Both the position numbers and the translations under genes were made by a program. From contig JAUIAU010000010.1 in assembly GCA_030425185.1 (NCBI GenBank), positions 1 to 64,000 of the forward strand: DNA of 64,000 bases. The letters are read 5' to 3'. A model generated the notes under the pieces. That model ran no database searches and had not been told where the DNA came from. It saw only the letters and a program-made list of their open reading frames with translations. This document shows, piece after piece, positions 46,379 through 57,136 of this stretch (positions within the stretch are counted from its first letter, which is position 1; every line of letters starts with the position of its first letter). This DNA is from Alphaproteobacteria bacterium. Its GTDB lineage: Bacteria; Pseudomonadota; Alphaproteobacteria; Rhodobacterales; Rhodobacteraceae.

Positions 46379-46477
46379 CCTTTCACCCTAGCGCGGTTCG
46401 CAGCGCGCGTCAGCCGCTGGTTGCACCGGTCCTGCGCCAAGGCTAGCACGCCCGGGGCAACGCGCGAGGGGGATCCC

Positions 46478-47089
46478 ATGACCGCTTTCCTTGCCGGGGT
46501 TTCGCTCGGGCTGTCGCTGATCCTCGCGATCGGGGCGCAGAACGCCTTCGTGCTGCGTCAGGGGCTGCGGCGGGCGCATGTGTTGCCGGTGGTGCTGACC
46601 TGTGCGCTGTCGGACGCGGTGCTGATCGTGCTGGGGGTCAGCAGTTTCGGCTGGGTGGCGGCGCGGCTGCCGCTGGTGGCGCCGGTCCTCGTCTGGGGCG
46701 GGGCGGCGTTCCTCGGGGTCTACGGCGCGCTGCGGCTGCGGGCGGCCCTGCGCGGGGGCGAGCGGCTCGACGCGGCGGAGGCGGGGACCGGCAGCCTGCG
46801 CGCGGCGGTGGGCACCTGTCTCGCGCTGACCTGGCTCAACCCGCATGTCTATCTCGACACGGTGGTCTTCCTCGGCTCGGTCTCGACGCGCTACGGCGAC
46901 GCGGCGGCGCTCTTCGGTGCGGGGGCGGTGACGGCGAGCTTCGTCTTCTTCTTCGCGCTCGGCTACGGCGCGCGGGCGCTGGCGCCGGTCTTCGCCCGGC
47001 CGGGCGCGTGGCGGGTCCTGGACCTCGTCATCGCGGCGGTGATGTGGGCGCTGGCGGCCAAGCTGGTGGCGGGGCAGCTGGCGGGCTGA
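46478..47089 (+). CDS. LysE/ArgO family amino-acid exporter
   Basis: GVSLGLSLILAIGAQNAFVLRQGLRRAHVLPVVLTCALSDAVLI. Confidence 0.9.
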   Translation: MTAFLAGVSLGLSLILAIGAQNAFVLRQGLRRAHVLPVVLTCALSDAVLIVLGVSSFGWVAARLPLVAPVLVWGGAAFLGVYGALRLRAALRGGERLDAAEAGTGSLRAAVGTCLALTWLNPHVYLDTVVFLGSVSTRYGDAAALFGAGAVTASFVFFFALGYGARALAPVFARPGAWRVLDLVIAAVMWALAAKLVAGQLAG

Positions 47090-47128
47090 GGTGTGGACAA
47101 GCCCGGCGCGGCGTGGTCTGTCGGCGTC

Positions 47129-48031
47129 ATGCAATCCACCCCCGGAAACCCTGTCGTCGGCGTGCTCTGGATGCTCCTGACGGGGCTCTGTTTCGTCGCG
47201 GTCACGGCGCTGGTGAAATCGCTCGGCACCGGGATCCCGGCGGCGCAGTCCGCCTTCCTGCGCTACGCGCTGGGGCTGGTGTTCCTGCTGCCGGTGCTGC
47301 CGCAGCTTCTGCGGCTGCCGGGAGGCGCGCGGATGTGGACCTGGTTCGGCCTGCGCGGTGCCGCGCATACGCTGGGCGTGATCCTGTGGTTCTTCGCGAT
47401 GACCCGGATTTCCATCGCCGAGGTCACGGCGATGAACTACCTCAACCCGGTCTATGTCACGCTGGGGGCGGCGGTGTTCTTCGGCGAGAAGCTGGCGCTG
47501 CGGCGGCTGGCGGCGGTGGGGGTCGCGCTGCTGGGCGCGCTGATCATCCTGCGGCCCGGCCTGCGCGAGGTCTCGGACGGGCACGTGGCGATGATCTTCA
47601 CGGCGATCTTCTTCGGGGTCTCCTACCTGCTGGCCAAGAAGTTCTCGGGCGAGGTCTCGGCGGGCGTGGTCGTCGCCATGCTGTCGCTCACGGTCACCAT
47701 CGGGCTGGCGCCCTTCGCGCTGGCGGTCTGGGTGCCGGTGACGGCGCACCAGGTCTTCGTGCTGTTCTGCGTGGCCTGTTTCGCAACCGCCGGGCATTAC
47801 ACGATGACCCGCGCCTTTGCCGCGGCGCCGCTGACCGTGACCCAGCCGGTGACCTTCGTGCAGCTCGTGTGGGCAACGCTGCTCGGCGCGCTTGTTTTCG
47901 GCGAGCCGGTCGACGCCTTCGTGGTGCTGGGCGGCGGGCTGATCATCGCCTCGATCAGCTTCATCACCTGGCGCGAGGCCCAGCTGCGGCGCGGGCGGGT
48001 CACGCCCTCGGTGCCCGAAACCAAGCTGTGA
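47129..48031 (+). CDS. DMT (EamA) family transporter
   Basis: Ten hydrophobic segments; GNPVVGVLWMLLTGLCFVAVTALVKSLGTGIPAAQSAFLRYALGL. Confidence 0.88.
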   Translation: MQSTPGNPVVGVLWMLLTGLCFVAVTALVKSLGTGIPAAQSAFLRYALGLVFLLPVLPQLLRLPGGARMWTWFGLRGAAHTLGVILWFFAMTRISIAEVTAMNYLNPVYVTLGAAVFFGEKLALRRLAAVGVALLGALIILRPGLREVSDGHVAMIFTAIFFGVSYLLAKKFSGEVSAGVVVAMLSLTVTIGLAPFALAVWVPVTAHQVFVLFCVACFATAGHYTMTRAFAAAPLTVTQPVTFVQLVWATLLGALVFGEPVDAFVVLGGGLIIASISFITWREAQLRRGRVTPSVPETKL

Positions 48032-48103
48032 CACCGTCTTTCGGATGACAGCCGCGGGCAGGCGGGGCAGAGTGGCAGGGCACGATGTCGAGGAGGCCTG
48101 CCG

Positions 48104-49162
48104 ATGCGAACCCTAATGCTTTCCAGTCTTGCGCTCGGACTGGCCGGGCAGGCCGAGGCGGGGCTGGAGGTGTGCAACCAGACCGACACCCGGCACCAGG
48201 TCGCGATCGGCTATTCGGACAACGGCGACTGGGTCAGCGAGGGCTGGTGGGGGGTCGATCCCGGGGCCTGCACCACGGTGATCGGCGGCGACCTGAAGGT
48301 GCGCAACGTCTACTACCGCCCCACCGCCAGCGGCCATGACTATGGCGGCGAGTACGCCTTCTGCGTCGACAGCGCCGCCTTCACCATCCGCGGCGACACC
48401 GACTGCGCGGCGCGCGGTTACCGCGAGGCGCTGTTCCTGATGGAGGACACCGGCCCGACCGCGACCGAGTGGACCATCGTTCTGAACGGCGCGCCGGTGC
48501 CGGACAAGGCGCCCGCGCCGCCGCCTGCGCCCGCCCCGGCCCCTGCGCCCGCGCCGATGGCGGGGCTCGGGTTCGAGTATTCCGATTTCGACAGCGGCAT
48601 CGAGCCGGGCACGATGGGCGAGCCGTTCACGGTGGAGGGGCGGTTCCTCGAATGCGCGATGCCCGAGGGCGAGCGCTACTGCCTGTTCGAGGCCGAAGGC
48701 TGGGAATGGTACCTCTACGAGGGCGCGACGCCCTCCTTCGCGCTCGACGCGATGGAGGTCCTGACGCCGGGCCAGCGGGCGGTCTTCAGCGGCGACGTGA
48801 TCAGCTATGGCGACATCTCGGTCGAGGCGATGCTGCGGCGCTACGTGGCCGACGGCACCGAGGACGAGAGCGACCGGATCTGGGCCGCCGTGCAGGGCAG
48901 CTTCTATGCCGCCGACGAGCCGGGCTACACGGCGGACGTCTATACCAACAACTTCTTCACCGAGAACGGCGGCATCCTGTCGGGCGAGATCTTCCGGATC
49001 GCGCCGGACTGTCCCGAGAGCAACGGCGCAGGCCCGGTGATGATCCGCACCGAGCGCGAGACGCAGGACAGCGTCTGTTTCGTGCTGTCGGACTGGGGTC
49101 CGGGCGGCTTCACCACGACCTTCGCGGGCGGCTGGCAGGAGACCCGCTGGGTGCGGCGTTAA
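48104..49162 (+). CDS. Secreted DUF1036-like protein with Pro/Ala linker and a second C-terminal domain
   Basis: LEVCNQTDTRHQVAIGYSDNGDWVSEGWWGVDPGACTTVI...VYYRP; linker [19 protein letters not shown]. Confidence 0.75.
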   Translation: MRTLMLSSLALGLAGQAEAGLEVCNQTDTRHQVAIGYSDNGDWVSEGWWGVDPGACTTVIGGDLKVRNVYYRPTASGHDYGGEYAFCVDSAAFTIRGDTDCAARGYREALFLMEDTGPTATEWTIVLNGAPVPDKAPAPPPAPAPAPAPAPMAGLGFEYSDFDSGIEPGTMGEPFTVEGRFLECAMPEGERYCLFEAEGWEWYLYEGATPSFALDAMEVLTPGQRAVFSGDVISYGDISVEAMLRRYVADGTEDESDRIWAAVQGSFYAADEPGYTADVYTNNFFTENGGILSGEIFRIAPDCPESNGAGPVMIRTERETQDSVCFVLSDWGPGGFTTTFAGGWQETRWVRR

Positions 49163-49227
49163 CCTGATTTCAACTTTTTCCCGCGGCCCGGTTGAGTCGG
49201 GCCCGCGCAGGCCCGATCTTTGCGGGC

Positions 49228-49905
49228 ATGCGGGGACGGATCATCATCGTTGCGGCGCTGGCTGCCGCCCTTTGGGCGAGTGCCGCGCTGGCCGACCTGA
49301 GCGGACGCGCGCGGGTGATCGACGGCGACACGCTGGAGATCCGCGGCGTGACGGTCCGGCTGCTGGGGATCGACGCGCCCGAGGCCGACCAGACCTGCGC
49401 GCGCGCCGGGGACCGGGCCTGGCCCTGCGGGCGCTGGGTCACGCAGGAGGTGCGCGCCTATCTGAGCGGACGGACGGTGACCTGCGCCGAGGAAGGGCAG
49501 GACCGCTATGGCCGGGTGCTGGGGCGCTGCCGGGTCGGGGACGCGGACCTGTCGGCGACGCTGGCGGTGTCGGGCCTGGCCTGGGTGAACCCGCGCTACG
49601 AACTGACCTACCAGCCGCAGGAGAAGGCCGCCGCCCTGGCGGGCCGGGGCCTCTGGGCAATGCAGAGCGTGCCGCCCTGGGAATATCGCGCCACTGAGGC
49701 CGCGGCGCTGGCGGCACGGCCGCCGCAGCAGGCCCCGCGCACGGGCTGTGTCATCAAGGGCAACATCTCGTCGGGCGGGCGCATCTACCATGTGCCGGGG
49801 CAGGAGCACTATGACCGCACCCGCATCGACACCGCCCGGGGCGAACGCTGGTTCTGCTCGGCGGCCGAGGCGCGGGCGGCAGGCTGGCGACCGGCCCGGC
49901 GCTGA
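49228..49905 (+). CDS. Thermonuclease (SNase-like) family protein
   Basis: GRARVIDGDTLEIRGVTVRLLGIDAPEADQTC...DRYGRVLGRC. Confidence 0.88.
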   Translation: MRGRIIIVAALAAALWASAALADLSGRARVIDGDTLEIRGVTVRLLGIDAPEADQTCARAGDRAWPCGRWVTQEVRAYLSGRTVTCAEEGQDRYGRVLGRCRVGDADLSATLAVSGLAWVNPRYELTYQPQEKAAALAGRGLWAMQSVPPWEYRATEAAALAARPPQQAPRTGCVIKGNISSGGRIYHVPGQEHYDRTRIDTARGERWFCSAAEARAAGWRPARR

Positions 49906-50017
49906 GGCGCATGGGGGATGCATCTTTCCCGCCCGAACTTGATCCCGGTCAAGGTGCGGGGCCGTCGGGCATCGCAAGGTGACTCGCAACACAGGCTCAG
50001 AAAGACAGGAGGGGACC

Positions 50018-50260
50018 ATGTCGAACACGCCGCATGAACTCGCGGAGGAGTTTCCGCAGCACGTCGAGCGGATGCACCAGCTCAAGACCGAGGACGCGCA
50101 TTTCGCGAAGCTCTTCGACGAATACCACGAGGTGAACCGCGCCGTTCACCGGGCCGAATCCCGCGTCGAGGTGATCGACGAGTCGGCCGAGGAAACGCTG
50201 CGCCGCCGCCGGATGGCGATCAAGGATCAGATCTTCGGCTATCTCGCCACCCCGGCCTGA
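50018..50260 (+). CDS. YdcH/DUF465 family protein
   Basis: MSNTPHELAEEFPQHVERMHQLKTEDAHFAKLFDEYHEVNRAVHRAESRVE. Confidence 0.9.
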   Translation: MSNTPHELAEEFPQHVERMHQLKTEDAHFAKLFDEYHEVNRAVHRAESRVEVIDESAEETLRRRRMAIKDQIFGYLATPA

Positions 50261-50308
50261 GCCGGATCCGACTTCGACAGGGCGACCTCCCGCGCCCTGC
50301 TCAAGGAA

Positions 50309-50343
50309 CCCGCCGCCGATCCTCCCTCGGCGGCGGGTTTTTT
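50309..50343 (+). terminator. Intrinsic terminator
   Basis: CCCGCCGCCGA-TCCTCCC-TCGGCGGCGGG followed by TTTTTT. Confidence 0.92.
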
Positions 50344-50353
50344 CATGGGTTGG

Positions 50354-50989
50354 CTAGTCCTGCGGGGCCTGATCCGGCAGGGATCGCACCAGAGCGATCA
50401 GGTTGCCGACCTGCTGTCGGGTCGGGGTAAGGCTCAGATCTCCGTGTGCGATACGGTTGCGCAGCGTTCCCAGTTCGCGCAGCAGCGGTTCGGAGTCCGG
50501 CAGGACCCGGCCTGTCGTGACCAAGAGATCAATCATCGTGGCGGTGCTCATCATCCGGTCTTGGAGTTCAGGCTGCGCGCGCCGGGCCTTCGCTTCCAGG
50601 GCGGCCCAGGCCAGTAGCAGGGCAGCACGGGGCGCGCGCTCGATCAGGTCCGCGGCCTCCATCAGACTGGCGTCCACGATTTCCGCGGTTGCCGGAGTGA
50701 CAGGGCCCACCTCGGACGTGGCATAGACGATCTCCAGCCGCCACTCCGGGTGACGGGACAGAAGGGACTTGATCTGTTCGATTTTGGTTGCGGCGGCCGG
50801 GCGGGTTCCGTCGATCACCTCGATGATGAGACCCGGAGTCCTTCCGGTCGCAATCGCATCCGGGAAGTGGTGCCCGAGGAATGCAGGCAGGTCCTGCTGC
50901 CGAGGGTCCCGCAGCACAGTATAGCCCTGACGGCGCCAGTGCGGTTCCATCCGGTCCAGAGCATAGCGGTTTGTCGGTTCAAATCCCAC
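50354..50989 (-). CDS. Putative REase_AHJR-like nuclease-fold protein with HEPN-like C-terminus
   Basis: GYTVLRDPRQQDLPAFLGHHFPDAIATGRTPGLIIEVID (AHJR-like) and ELGTLRNRIAHGDLS (RNxxAHG); GTG start overlaps the previous stop (TAGTG). Confidence 0.55.
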   Translation of the reverse strand: MGFEPTNRYALDRMEPHWRRQGYTVLRDPRQQDLPAFLGHHFPDAIATGRTPGLIIEVIDGTRPAAATKIEQIKSLLSRHPEWRLEIVYATSEVGPVTPATAEIVDASLMEAADLIERAPRAALLLAWAALEAKARRAQPELQDRMMSTATMIDLLVTTGRVLPDSEPLLRELGTLRNRIAHGDLSLTPTRQQVGNLIALVRSLPDQAPQD

Positions 50990-51441
50990 TATGACAACTC
51001 CTCATGCGGGTCCCCTGTCACCTTAACATACACGAGCGGTTTTTCCGCCCTCAATGCATCGAGAAGGCACGAACTCGGATCGGAAAACGCGAACACCCGC
51101 TCGGGTTCGAACTTCTGTACGACCAGACGTTCGACAAGGGCATCGTCGGCATAGATTGTCCCTGTCATGGCATCGAGGATCGGTTTGACGCGATTGTCGA
51201 CATCGCCCGCGAGAGCGGCAGCCGGGAAAATATAGATCGTCACCGAGACGGAGTCGGTGAGGAGCCATGACCCTTCCTCGAGACCGTCGCTTGCCGCCCT
51301 TGAAACCCGGGACCGCCACTGTGTCTTGGATGCGGAGCTCGCCTGAGCGCTGACGGCTGTCCCCGCTACCAGAAACTCAAGCGGCAGATCGGGTTCCATG
51401 GCCTCCACCCGGTGCAAGCGCGTCGAACCCAGTTTGGCCAA
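50989..51441 (-). CDS. RusA-like Holliday-junction resolvase family protein
   Basis: AGDVDNRVKPILDAMTGTIYADDALVERLVVQKFEPE carries the RusA-type DxDN...KPxLDA...DD signature. Confidence 0.75.
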   Translation of the reverse strand: MAKLGSTRLHRVEAMEPDLPLEFLVAGTAVSAQASSASKTQWRSRVSRAASDGLEEGSWLLTDSVSVTIYIFPAAALAGDVDNRVKPILDAMTGTIYADDALVERLVVQKFEPERVFAFSDPSSCLLDALRAEKPLVYVKVTGDPHEELS

Positions 51442-51518
51442 ATAGGTAAAGGTAACCTTAAGGCCTTGGCCCTCCCGTGCTCCGCCGCTAGCGTCGCCGC
51501 CGGACGAGGGAGGATGCC

Positions 51519-52700
51519 ATGGCGCGACGCTGGCAGGGACTGGCGCTGCTGTTCACGCTGCGTGCGACGATGGCGTTCCAGTTCGCCACCGTGGGCGCGC
51601 TGGGGCCGCTGGTGCAGGAAAGCTTCGCGGTGGACGCGGCGGGCCTCGGGCTGCTGATCGGGCTCTATGTCGCGCCGGGCATCGCGGTGTCGCTGCCCGG
51701 GGGACTGTTCGGCAAGCGGTTCGGCGATGTCCGCGTGATCGGCGCGGGGCTCTGCCTGATGATCGCGGGCGGCATGCTGATGAGCCTCGCCAGCGGCTGG
51801 GGCCTGCAACTGGCGGGCCGGGTGCTGGCCGGGGCGGGCGGCGTGTTCCTGAACGTGCTGATGACCAAGATGGTGACCGACTGGTTCGCGGGGCGCGAGA
51901 TCGCCACGGCGATGGCGAGCTTCGTCAACGCCTGGCCCGGGGGCATCGCGCTGGCGCTGGTGGCGCAGCCGATGGTGGCCGAGGCGGGCGGGCTGGTCGC
52001 CGCGCAGGCGCTTGCCGTGGCGCTGTCGGCGGCGGGGCTGATCTGGTTGCTGCTGCAACCCCTGCCCGAGGCACTGGCGCAGGCGGGACCGGTCCGGGCC
52101 TGGCCCGCGGGCCGCGGGCTGGCGGCGATCCTGCTGGCGGGCTGTGTCTGGGGCCTCTACAACGGCGGGTTCGCGCTGCTCCTGAGTTTCGGGCCGACGC
52201 TGATGGTCGAGCGCGGCACGGCGCTGGTCGAGGCCAGCCGGGCGGTCAGCCTGGTGTTCTGGGTCATCGCGGTCTTCGGCGTGCTGGGCGGGGCGCTGGC
52301 CGACCGCACCGGGCGGCCGGGCCTCGTGCTAGTCGGCGCGACGCTGGTGCAGGCGGTCCTGCTGCTGGTGTTCGCCTCCGGCGGCTCGTCGGTGGCACTC
52401 CTGCTGGCGATCGGGGTGATGGTCGGCCTGCCCTCCGGGCCGATCATGGCGATGCCCGCCCGCGCGCTGGCCCCGGCCGAGCGGTCCGTGGGTATGGGGC
52501 TGTTCTACACCGTCTATTACCTGTGGTTCGCGCTGATCCCGCCCGCGGCAGGTGCCGCGATCGAGGTCGCGGGCACCGCGGCCGCCGCGCTGGTGCTGGG
52601 GGCGGGGCTGCTGATGACCTCGCTCGCCTGCGCGGCGGGGTTCGAGGGGGTGGTGCGGGGCGTCAAGCGCCCGGCCCCTCAGGCCGGATCGACGCGGTAG
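51519..52700 (+). CDS. MFS transporter (CynX/NimT-like)
   Basis: 12 TM; RWQGLALLFTLRATMAFQFATVGALGPLVQESFAVDAAGLGLLIGLYVAPGIAVSLPGG. Confidence 0.85.
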   Translation: MARRWQGLALLFTLRATMAFQFATVGALGPLVQESFAVDAAGLGLLIGLYVAPGIAVSLPGGLFGKRFGDVRVIGAGLCLMIAGGMLMSLASGWGLQLAGRVLAGAGGVFLNVLMTKMVTDWFAGREIATAMASFVNAWPGGIALALVAQPMVAEAGGLVAAQALAVALSAAGLIWLLLQPLPEALAQAGPVRAWPAGRGLAAILLAGCVWGLYNGGFALLLSFGPTLMVERGTALVEASRAVSLVFWVIAVFGVLGGALADRTGRPGLVLVGATLVQAVLLLVFASGGSSVALLLAIGVMVGLPSGPIMAMPARALAPAERSVGMGLFYTVYYLWFALIPPAAGAAIEVAGTAAAALVLGAGLLMTSLACAAGFEGVVRGVKRPAPQAGSTR

Positions 52701-54073
52701 GGCAGCACGCCGCGGGTGTCGTGATCGACAGACAGGCGGCGTTCCAGCGGCGGAACCGAACGCTGGTGGCAATGGCGGCGCTCGCAGATGCGGCAGGAGA
52801 TGCCGATCGGCTCGAACGCGCCGTCTTTGAGGTCGAAGCCGTCGGCATAGACCAGTGCCGAGGCATAGCGCACCTCGCAGCCCAGCCCGATGGCGTAGCG
52901 GCGGACCGGGGCGTTCCAGTGCCCGCCGGGTTTCGACACGTCGCGGGCAAGGCAGATGTAGCGCACGCCATCCGGGGTTTCGGCAAGCTGGCGCAGGAAG
53001 CGGCCCGGCGTCTCGAACGCCTGGTGGACGTTCCACAGCGGGCAGGCGCCGCCGAAGCGGGCGAATTGCAGCCGCGTCGCGGAGTGCCGCTTGGTGATGG
53101 TCCCGGCCTGGTCGACGCGGACGAAGAAGAAGGGGATGCCCTTTGCCCCCGGCCGCTGCATCGTCGAGAGCCGGTGCGCGACCTGTTCGATGGAGGCGCC
53201 GAAGCGGTCGGCCAGCCGTTCGAGGTCGTGCCGGGTCTCGCGCGCGGCGTCGAGGAAGGCGGTGTAGGGCAGCAGCACCGCGCCCGCGAAGTAGTTCGCC
53301 AGCCCGATCCGGGCGATGTCGCGGGCGGCGTCGGTCTGGAAGCGGGCAAAGTCGAGCGTGGCGTCGAGCAGCTTGCCCTGCGTTAAAAGCGCGATCTGGT
53401 GCAGGAGCTGGAAGCGCCGGGTGGCGGCGGCGGCGCGCGTCGACAGCCGGAGGCGCCGCGCCTCCGGGTCATAGAGGCGCAGGTCGGGCATGTCGGCGGC
53501 CTCGGTGGCGATGCCGGCCTCGGCCAGCAAGCGCAGCGCGCCCGCCTCGGGGTCGGGGCCGAGCCGGGCCGCGACCCGTTCGGCGGCGCGGTCCACGGCG
53601 TCGATGTAGTTGTCGCAGTAGTGGAAGAAGTCGCGGACCTCCTCCCACGGGCTGGGGCTGAGGGCGCTGCCTTCGCGCCCCAGCGCCTCGTCGAGCGAGG
53701 CGAGGCGCTCGTGCGTGGCGCGGTAGGCGCGGTGCAGTTCGAGGAAGGCGCGCGCCAGCGCCGGGGCATTCGCCGCGCTCAGCCGCAGGTCGGCCAGCGG
53801 CGGGGCCTCGGTGAAGACCGGGTCTGTCAGCGCTTCGCGCAGGTCCGAGACGAGGCGCTCGGTGTCGCCCTGGGCCAGTTCGGTGACGTCGAAGCCGAAT
53901 TCCCGCGCCAGCGCCACCACGACCGCCGTCGAGACCGGGCGGTTGTTGTTCTCCATCTGGTTCAGGTAGGGCAGCGAGATCCCCAGCTTTTCGGCGAAGG
54001 CGCGCTGCGTCAGCCCGAGGCGCTGGCGCGTCTCGCGCAGTTTCGCCCCGGCATAGAGCTTCTGCTGGGTCAT
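52679..54073 (-). CDS. pccR: ScfR/PccR-type regulator (XRE HTH + ImmA/IrrE-like + DUF2083)
   Basis: KLRETRQRLGLTQRAFAEKLGISLPYLNQMENNNRPVS; C-terminal CPLWNVHQAFETPGRF; CRICERRHCHQRSVPPLERRLSVD. Confidence 0.85.
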   Translation of the reverse strand: MTQQKLYAGAKLRETRQRLGLTQRAFAEKLGISLPYLNQMENNNRPVSTAVVVALAREFGFDVTELAQGDTERLVSDLREALTDPVFTEAPPLADLRLSAANAPALARAFLELHRAYRATHERLASLDEALGREGSALSPSPWEEVRDFFHYCDNYIDAVDRAAERVAARLGPDPEAGALRLLAEAGIATEAADMPDLRLYDPEARRLRLSTRAAAATRRFQLLHQIALLTQGKLLDATLDFARFQTDAARDIARIGLANYFAGAVLLPYTAFLDAARETRHDLERLADRFGASIEQVAHRLSTMQRPGAKGIPFFFVRVDQAGTITKRHSATRLQFARFGGACPLWNVHQAFETPGRFLRQLAETPDGVRYICLARDVSKPGGHWNAPVRRYAIGLGCEVRYASALVYADGFDLKDGAFEPIGISCRICERRHCHQRSVPPLERRLSVDHDTRGVLPYRVDPA

Positions 54074-54091
54074 GGCGTGCGGGTCCCGGTC

Positions 54092-54122
54092 TTTGCAAAC
54101 CTGAGCTTAGCGGGCTGCAAAG
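54092..54122. promoter_or_regulatory. Putative PccR autoregulatory site
   Basis: TTTGCAAA (54092-54099) and CTGCAAAG (54115-54122) just upstream of the regulator start. Confidence 0.5.
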
Positions 54123-54147
54123 CGGCGGCCAAGCGGGGCCTTGGCGC

Positions 54148-55365
54148 TCAGCCCGAGACCAGTTGCCGCTCGCGCCGCAGGACGTAGAGGATCGAGAGCA
54201 CCGACAGGATCGAGGTGATCAGCATGATCGCCATCAGCGGCCAGGGTCCGGCCCCCGGCACCAGCAGGGCGGCCGCCAGCGCCGACAGCGCGGCCCCGCC
54301 GCCGATCATGAACGCGCCGCCAAGGCCCGAGGCCGTTCCCGCGAGGTGCGGCCGCACCGAGAGCAGGCCGGCGGTGGCGTTGGGTAGCGTCATCCCGTTG
54401 CCGAGGCCGACGAAGGTGACGAAGCCGAAGAAGGCGACCGGGTGGGTGAAGCCCAGCCCGTAGAGCAGCGGCGGGAAGACGAGGCCCGCGGTCGCGATCA
54501 GGCAGCCCATCAGGATCATCGGGTTCACCCCGACGCGCACCGAGTAGCGCCCGGAAATGAAGTTGCCGACCGCGTAGCCGATGGCGGGCGCCCCGAAGAA
54601 GAAGCCAAGTTGCTCGGGCGGCAGGCCGTAGACGGTGGTGCCGACGTAGGGCGCTCCGCCGAGGAAGGCGAAGAACGCCCCCGAGCAGAACGCCGAGCAG
54701 GCGACATAGCCCCAGAACCGGCGCGAGGTCAGCAGTTCGGGATACTCGCGGGCCTGTTCGGCAAAGCTGGTGCTGCGCGCGGCCGAGGTCTCGCCCAGGT
54801 CGAAGAAGATCAGCGCGAGGATCGCGGCGGCGCCGAAGAGCAGCAACAGGAAGGACGCCTGCCATCCGAACGCGGCTTCGAGCGCGCCGCCGATGGCGGG
54901 CGCGATCATCGGGACGAGGGACATGCCCATGGTGACATAGCCGATCATCGACGCGCTTTCGGCCGGTCCGACCATGTCGCGCACGATGGCGCGGCTGAGC
55001 ACGAGGCCCGCCGCCACCACGGCCTGCGCCATGCGGAAGGCGAGGAACACCTCGATCGTCGGGGCCAGGAGGCAGCCCAGCGTCATCAGCAGGAAGAGCG
55101 TCGTGGTGGTCAGCAGGACCCGCCGCCGTCCGAACCGGTCCGAGATCGGGCCGACGACGATCTGCAGGATCGCGGTCGCCATCAGGTAGAGCGACACCGA
55201 GAGCTGCACAACGCGGTAGTCGGTCTCGAAATAGAGGGCCATCCCCGGCAGCGAGGGCAGGAAGATGTTCAGGCTCATCGCGGACAGGCCGGCGACGAGC
55301 ACGAGGGTCACGATGTGGGGCGGTGTCGTCCGGTCGAGAAACCGGACCCTGGGGCGCTGGCTCAT
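54148..55365 (-). CDS. Bcr/CflA family multidrug efflux MFS transporter
   Basis: MSQRPRVRFLDRTTPPHIVTLVLVAGLSAMSLNIFLPSLPGMALYFETDYRVVQLSVSLYLMATAILQIVVGPISDRFGRRRVLL. Confidence 0.92.
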   Translation of the reverse strand: MSQRPRVRFLDRTTPPHIVTLVLVAGLSAMSLNIFLPSLPGMALYFETDYRVVQLSVSLYLMATAILQIVVGPISDRFGRRRVLLTTTTLFLLMTLGCLLAPTIEVFLAFRMAQAVVAAGLVLSRAIVRDMVGPAESASMIGYVTMGMSLVPMIAPAIGGALEAAFGWQASFLLLLFGAAAILALIFFDLGETSAARSTSFAEQAREYPELLTSRRFWGYVACSAFCSGAFFAFLGGAPYVGTTVYGLPPEQLGFFFGAPAIGYAVGNFISGRYSVRVGVNPMILMGCLIATAGLVFPPLLYGLGFTHPVAFFGFVTFVGLGNGMTLPNATAGLLSVRPHLAGTASGLGGAFMIGGGAALSALAAALLVPGAGPWPLMAIMLITSILSVLSILYVLRRERQLVSG

Positions 55366-55497
55366 GCGAAAGGTGATAGGCCGGGACGCGGGGCGCGTCC
55401 ATCCGCAGCGGCCCGGCGGCCTGTGCAAAAGCGCAGACAGCGGGCCGGGCATCGCGCAGAGCCGAATTAACAGATTTGCGATTACCTTTTCGGTGAC

Positions 55498-55514
55498 TTT
55501 GCAGTGTTTGCAAA
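55498..55514. promoter_or_regulatory. Putative PccR binding site upstream of pccB
   Basis: TTTGCAGTGTTTGCAAA, 90 nt upstream of the pccB start. Confidence 0.55.
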
Positions 55515-55603
55515 TTCGCGGGATTCTCCTTTGCGGCAACCTGCCTGATCGTTATGCACCCTGAAAGCCGATAGACCTGCGCGAAACGAGAGGGAGCCGG
55601 ACC

Positions 55604-57136
55604 ATGAAAGACATTCTTCACGAGCTCGAGCACCGCCGCGCGGATGCGCGCCTCGGCGGGGGCCAGGCGCGGATCGACAGCCAGCACGGCAAGGGCAAGC
55701 TGACCGCCCGCGAGCGGATCGAGCTGCTGCTCGACGAGGGCTCGTTCGAAGAATACGACATGTTCATCACCCATCGCTGCACCGACTTCGGGATGCAGGA
55801 GAACACCCCGCGCGGCGACGGCGTCGTCACCGGCTGGGGCACGGTGAACGGCCGCCAGGTCTATGTCTTCGCGCAGGACTTCACGGTTCTCGGCGGCTCG
55901 GTCTCCGAAACCCACGCGGCCAAGATCTGCAAGATCATGGACATGGCGATGCAGAACGGCGCGCCGGTCATCGGCATCAACGACTCGGGCGGGGCGCGCA
56001 TCCAGGAGGGCGTCAGCTCGCTGGCGGCCTATGGCGAGGTGTTCAAGCGCAACATCCGCGGCTCGGGCGTGGTCCCGCAGATCAGCCTGATCATGGGCCC
56101 CTGCGCGGGCGGCGCGGTCTACAGCCCCGCGATGACCGACTTCATCTTCATGGTGAAGGACTCGTCCTACATGTTCGTGACCGGACCGGACGTGGTGAAG
56201 ACCGTCACCAACGAGCATGTCACCGCCGAGGAGCTGGGTGGCGCCTCGACCCACACCCGCAAGTCCTCGGTCGCGGACGGCGCCTTCGAGAACGACGTGG
56301 TGGCACTGGCCGAGACGCGCCGCCTGATCGACTTCCTGCCGCTGTCGAACCGCGAGAAGCCGCCGGTGCGGCCGTTCTTCGACGATCCCGGCCGGCTGGA
56401 GCCGAGCCTCGACACGCTGGTGCCGGACAACCCCAACCAGCCCTACGACATGAAGGAACTGATCCTGAAGATCGCCGACGAGGCCGATTTCTTCGAGATT
56501 CAGGAAGAGTTCGCCAAGAACATCATCACCGGCTTCATCCGGCTGGAAGGCTCGACCGTGGGCGTGGTGGCGAACCAGCCGATGGTGCTGGCGGGCTGCC
56601 TCGACATCGACAGCAGCCGCAAGGCCGCGCGCTTCGTGCGGTTCTGCGACGCCTTCGAGATCCCGATCCTGACGCTGGTCGACGTGCCGGGCTTCCTGCC
56701 GGGCACCACGCAGGAATACGGCGGCGTCATCAAGCACGGCGCGAAACTGCTCTATGCCTTCGGCGAGGCGACGGTCCCGAAGGTGACCGTCATCACTCGC
56801 AAGGCCTATGGCGGCGCCTATGTCGTGATGGCCTCGAAGCACCTGCAGGGCGACATCAACTATGCCTGGCCGACCTCCGAGGTCGCGGTGATGGGGGCCA
56901 AGGGCGCGGTCGAGATCCTCTATCGCTCGGAACTGGGCGACCCGGAGAAGATCGCGGGCCGCGTGAAGGATTACGAAGACCGCTTCGCCAACCCCTTCGT
57001 CGCCGCCGAGCGGGGCTTCATCGACGAGGTGATCCAGCCGCGCTCGACCCGCAAGCGGGTGGCCCGTGCCTTTGCCGCGCTGCGCGGCAAGAAGCTGGAT
57101 ATGCCGTGGAAGAAGCACGACAACCTTCCGCTGTGA
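55604..57136 (+). CDS. pccB: Propionyl-CoA carboxylase beta subunit
   Basis: [54 protein letters not shown]; full carboxyltransferase domain. Confidence 0.95.

Follow-up and report, generated by a model that had tools for sequence, protein, structure and literature searches.

A RusA-like resolvase and a protein that joins an archaeal-Hjc-like domain (AHJR) to a HEPN domain are encoded side by side in a conserved operon, which genome comparisons show to move as a ~1.1 kb unit of two genes among many alphaproteobacteria. Together the two genes probably make up a defence or conflict system, so far undescribed, directed at phages or plasmids. A RusA gene found outside a phage is usually written off as a leftover of a prophage; a mobile obligate operon gives this RusA subfamily, and AHJR-HEPN with it, a testable role. 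If that role is defence, recognition of branched DNA would be tied to an RNase effector. At 1.1 kb and two genes the unit is compact, its empty site is clean, and it is directly testable. Coordinates refer to the copy in the window, which is the whole stretch of DNA analysed, 64,000 nucleotides from a member of the Rhodobacteraceae (Table 1).

How much of this is new? HEPN-M/HepT proteins have been described as occasionally fused to an archaeal Holliday junction resolvase-like REase, until then undetected (Anantharaman 2013, PMC3710099), and to judge from its domains this is very probably the same AHJR-HEPN fusion. The main text of that paper does not mention RusA, and the operon, its mobility, the degeneracy of AHJR and the defence context are not described there. 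A literature search, in which subscription literature was thinly covered, found no paper linking RusA with AHJR or HEPN or treating RusA as a defence component, and no described function for PF18743. The sequence-only reading had called the cassette possibly undescribed; the fusion had been noted before, and it is the RusA partner that appears to be undescribed.

Could the two genes be neighbours by chance? Their co-occurrence across loci, seen in both search directions, rules this out. RusA lies directly upstream in 26/26 distinct loci with a full-length AHJR-HEPN gene; one of these RusA copies (G558) is broken, being truncated and frameshifted beside an AHJR-HEPN frame that is open and has its R-x4-H motif intact. 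Searches starting from AHJR place RusA upstream of every full-length match. A search of 199 genomes from another order that began with RusA found AHJR-HEPN downstream of all members of the RusA subfamily (5/5), and the three generic RusA matches from the same search all come without it. When each protein is compared with plasmids by tblastn, the identical six records are retrieved, with the genes adjacent in all of them. Genome contigs queried with RusA gave 11 loci, all but one (L014) with AHJR-HEPN directly downstream, and the same contigs queried with AHJR-HEPN gave no relatives; a scan of the class of G453 returned no additional AHJR. HEPN-only matches lacking RusA were left out (L003 and L033-L035, weak or sub-threshold for HEPN/DUF4145, L035 being just above the DUF4145 threshold), as was L036, a GntR regulator. 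Far from co-occurring rarely, the genes almost always do so, and this, together with the exact empty site described below, bears out the two-gene cassette that the sequence-only reading had proposed. The gene trees of RusA and AHJR-HEPN have their main clades in common, and the pairwise distances of the two genes correlate with r = 0.86, a value inflated by kinship among the sequences. Omega is ~0.04-0.27 for both genes and for both AHJR-HEPN halves in the pairs with unsaturated dS. Both genes and both domains are under purifying selection, and the pair is a conserved operon in which translation is probably coupled.

Table 1. Features of the RusA/AHJR-HEPN cassette, in window coordinates
Feature	Position	Strand	Basis
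rusA-like gene, 136 aa	50989..51399	-	PF05866, AF2 model, invariant catalytic residues
AHJR-HEPN gene, 211 aa	50354..50989	-	PF18743, family profile, AF2 model
Cassette insert, both genes and leader of ~83 bp	50355..51482	-	Alignment with G1042 C287 (L080)
Predicted HEPN catalytic motif R177-NRIA-H182-G183	50441..50461	-	R, H and G invariant in 25/25 homologues
Degenerate PD-(D/E)XK motif P43-D44 ... E57-V-I59, Lys lost	50813..50863	-	Residue counts over 25 homologues
Palindrome cluster (AAGGTAACCTT / CCTTAAGG / AAGGCCTT) in RusA leader	51449..51467		Sequence

Both open reading frames are present on the minus strand (window 50354-51441), with a 1-nt stop/start overlap, TAGTG, as first described. 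The longest RusA frame does begin at TTG 51441, but ATG 51399 is the more likely start, because the best relatives begin there and GGTGGAG stands before it. GC content is 0.59 for RusA and 0.65 for AHJR-HEPN against ~0.70 for the whole window, in line with the lower GC noted earlier; the cassette is also below host GC in most GC-rich hosts, and the coding scores of its genes are low in most hosts. The flanks carry DUF465, SNase-type nuclease, MFS, ScfR and carboxyl-transferase genes and, as had been remarked, no phage genes. The pair had been placed between an intrinsic terminator and an MFS gene. The latter is indeed MFS_1 (E 6.5e-35); the terminator-like element downstream belongs to the neighbouring gene and lies outside the cassette, because it is conserved in the relative without the pair. 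The RusA leader holds short, overlapping palindromes without a second copy in the window, a possible candidate for a regulatory site or operator. Visual inspection did not reveal this cluster in leaders from relatives, and a sigma-70 promoter scan of the leader gave no match. Nor did a comparison by eye of 25 loci, covering leader and downstream flank, show any regulatory or terminal repeat that the loci share at the ends of the cassette.

Evidence for mobility comes from a same-genus relative (G1042 C287, L080) that has an exact empty site, with 12 bp (ctcgtggctgcg) where the window has the 1,128-bp cassette. Window positions 46442-50354 and 51483-56095 match this contig at 95-96%, with nothing between them. 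One edge of the cassette falls at the AHJR-HEPN stop codon and the other ~83 bp upstream of ATG 51399; on Rhizobium plasmids, the matching block with differing flanks likewise starts ~60 bp upstream of RusA. The distribution is patchy, the pair being absent from ~396 other genomes of the family and present as a full-length copy in 6/387 genomes of the class. Neither the flanking genes nor the empty-site comparison revealed an integrase, tRNA or phage gene around the cassette, and none of the phage records or viral contigs examined contains the RusA subfamily with AHJR-HEPN. In one Defluviicoccus genome (L014, 8001-9869), AHJR-HEPN is missing and a transposase-like ORF, which from its sequence we take to be IS110-like, sits right after RusA. 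At L071 (G847), both genes are decayed, frameshifted remnants.

The first protein had been read as RusA-like, and PF05866 agrees (E 2.7e-10, 41.4 bits against a gathering cut-off of 22.8). Its AF2 model (pLDDT 86) is matched by Foldseek to E. coli RusA (1q8r, prob 1.00, E 3e-5, TM 0.6-0.8), and the fold also matches 2h8c. D66, D68, N69, K72, D76 and D86 are invariant in 25/25 copies, and the catalytic Asp triad and Lys among them (D66, D68, K72 and D86) align with D70, D72, K76 and D91 of E. coli RusA. Fold, size and the aligned aspartates and lysine are thus common to this protein and the PF05866 resolvases, but it belongs to a separate subfamily recognisable by a signature of its own (W28, QKFEP), lies outside a phage context and is always coupled to AHJR-HEPN.

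The second protein has the AHJR-like N-terminus (IIEVID, with Ile for the ExK Lys) and the C-terminal RNxxAHG motif, here RNRIAHG, that the sequence-only reading had picked out. The archaeal-Hjc-like PD-(D/E)XK domain (residues ~8-105) is well above the gathering score of PF18743 (residues 8-105, E 4.9e-17, 62.1 bits against 26.1), and in this part the family profile matches archaeal Hjc structures (2eo0, E 2e-5). The HEPN domain (residues ~105-203) gives fainter signals: the family profile weakly matches HepT toxins (5yep, E 0.08), the Pfam match of the window protein is sub-threshold (17 against 28.4 bits), and Foldseek returns HepT/2hsb with prob 0.97-1.0 but weak E values of 0.03-0.1. The homologue on the plasmid pTi passes the thresholds of both PF18743 and the HepT-like PF01934 (25.8 against 23.5 bits for the latter). 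In the AF2 model (mean pLDDT 87) the N-terminal domain is alpha/beta and the C-terminal half is an all-helical bundle, and the bundle carries R-x4-H as in the HEPN superfamily, with R177, H182 and G183 invariant in 25/25 copies. Which of the domains are active enzymes? In AHJR, PD is kept in 25/25 copies and E57 in 22/25, but the catalytic Lys in 7/25, and the window protein, one of the 18/25 that have lost it, reads PD...EVI rather than the complete PD...ExK of an active nuclease. Because the ExK Lys is so rarely kept and yet the domain is under selection, AHJR is probably a binder of junction DNA rather than a nuclease in these proteins. RusA and HEPN, the latter as a predicted RNase, are both probably catalytic, because their catalytic residues do not vary and both are under purifying selection. 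The protein differs from archaeal Hjc and other PF18743 members in its fusion to HEPN and in the frequent loss of the Lys. It resembles the HepT/MntA (HEPN-MNT) toxin-antitoxin systems in belonging to a two-gene module with a HEPN fold and R-x4-H, but its HEPN is joined to an Hjc-like domain and it is paired with a RusA nuclease instead of a nucleotidyltransferase; no MNT antitoxin partner was seen, RusA being the partner in all loci.

A defence role, as the sequence-only reading had suggested, is backed by gene context on rhizobial plasmids only; at other loci the pair forms an islet by itself. On plasmid pT136b of Rhizobium sp. T136, the pair has AbiEi/AbiEii (E 3e-90, 4e-92) on one side and an Mrr nuclease on the other, after which come Gabija-like GajB/GajA (2e-50 and 2e-76, respectively) and PD-T7-5 (3e-128). 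In R. gallicum, PD-Lambda-2 B/C (1e-68, 8e-23) is directly upstream of the pair, and in R. phaseoli Mrr-type nucleases stand on either side of it. These three plasmids have one island lineage in common, so the contexts are not independent and the defence-island evidence comes essentially from that lineage. The T136 stretch (L020:10036-23027) is a dense plasmid defence island whose content varies in related plasmids. The copy on pTi_CFBP2177 is found beside a HATPase gene, ligD and imuA/dnaE2 rather than defence genes. Chromosomal copies are lone islets among ordinary genes, for example EamA, HgmA, IolB/KduI, Tex and CobO, and most stand amid metabolic or transport genes, which counts against defence. 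In PADLOC, 0 families match either protein at E values up to 5, so membership of a defence system catalogued there was rejected. Between two Rhodopseudomonas loci (L016 and L017), RusA and the start of AHJR-HEPN are ~90% identical and identity then drops abruptly to ~60% (L017:8447-9487, covering most of AHJR-HEPN); this pattern suggests a probable allele swap within AHJR-HEPN, as in arms-race genes.

How might the pair work? We favour, with a probability of about one half, a defence or conflict module complete in its two genes: RusA would cut DNA, AHJR would sense branched DNA and HEPN would act as an RNase effector. The defence reading draws on the conserved operon, purifying selection, catalytic conservation, patchy mobility, the rhizobial defence context and the Rhodopseudomonas allele swap. 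Weighing against it are the negative PADLOC result, the ordinary surroundings of most chromosomal copies, the one island lineage behind the defence context, and the sub-threshold Pfam and weak Foldseek matches of HEPN. RusA would be an active endonuclease that cuts the branched DNA of an invader, and AHJR, mostly a pseudo-nuclease, would bind the same kind of DNA. The targets may be Holliday junctions or forks that arise as the DNA of a phage or plasmid replicates or recombines. Binding by AHJR would turn on HEPN, and the resulting RNA cleavage could lead to dormancy or abortive infection in addition to the cutting by RusA. More tentatively, the pair could be a system against phages or plasmids that has so far gone unrecognised. 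Two unrelated Holliday-junction-type folds, a RusA that is active and an Hjc-like sensor that has mostly lost catalysis, would recognise branched DNA, and the HEPN RNase fused to the sensor would mount an abortive response by cleaving RNA.

The main rival is a toxin-antitoxin or addiction module, with AHJR-HEPN as the RNase toxin and RusA as its antidote, acting by binding or by resolving the trigger DNA. A small overlapping gene pair that is mobile across plasmids and chromosomes would fit such a module, HEPN is nearest to HepT toxins and even passes a HepT-like Pfam threshold in the pTi copy, and at L014 a mobile element directly follows RusA where AHJR-HEPN has been lost, as for a dispensable toxin. 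We nevertheless regard it as somewhat unlikely: catalytic residues kept in every RusA copy would be unusual for a mere sequestering antidote, neither MNT nor another known antitoxin partner is seen, and the G558 locus, with its broken RusA and intact AHJR-HEPN, implies that viability there does not strictly depend on RusA.

Next comes a DNA-repair or recombination cassette, in which two Holliday-junction-type nucleases would process junctions left after damage and HEPN would be an accessory interaction domain. Both DNA-facing domains do come from Holliday-junction resolvase families, and ligD is near the pair on both pTi and the T136 plasmid, accompanied by imuA/dnaE2 or xth. This explanation predicts the reverse of what is seen, an invariant HEPN R-x4-H and an AHJR Lys that is mostly lost, and the very patchy distribution and the lack of consistent repair genes among the chromosomal neighbours make it quite improbable. 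Lastly, lambdoid phages typically carry RusA genes and generic phage RusA matches exist, but the remnant of a decayed prophage, in which a phage-type RusA would lie beside an unrelated gene, is extremely improbable: the operon is conserved across orders, is under purifying selection and is missing from the phage and viral sequences examined. This reading is ruled out by the clean, exact insertion of 1,128 bp; no phage gene, integrase, nearby tRNA or attachment site accompanies it, and the flanking synteny shows no decayed prophage.

One neighbour recurs on plasmids. A HATPase_c_3 protein of ~650 aa is encoded just downstream of the pair on both the Rhizobium plasmid (L020:14696-16675) and pTi_CFBP2177 (L021:13101-15035), and its sole PADLOC match is to a type II restriction-enzyme model, a weak match over the ATPase region.
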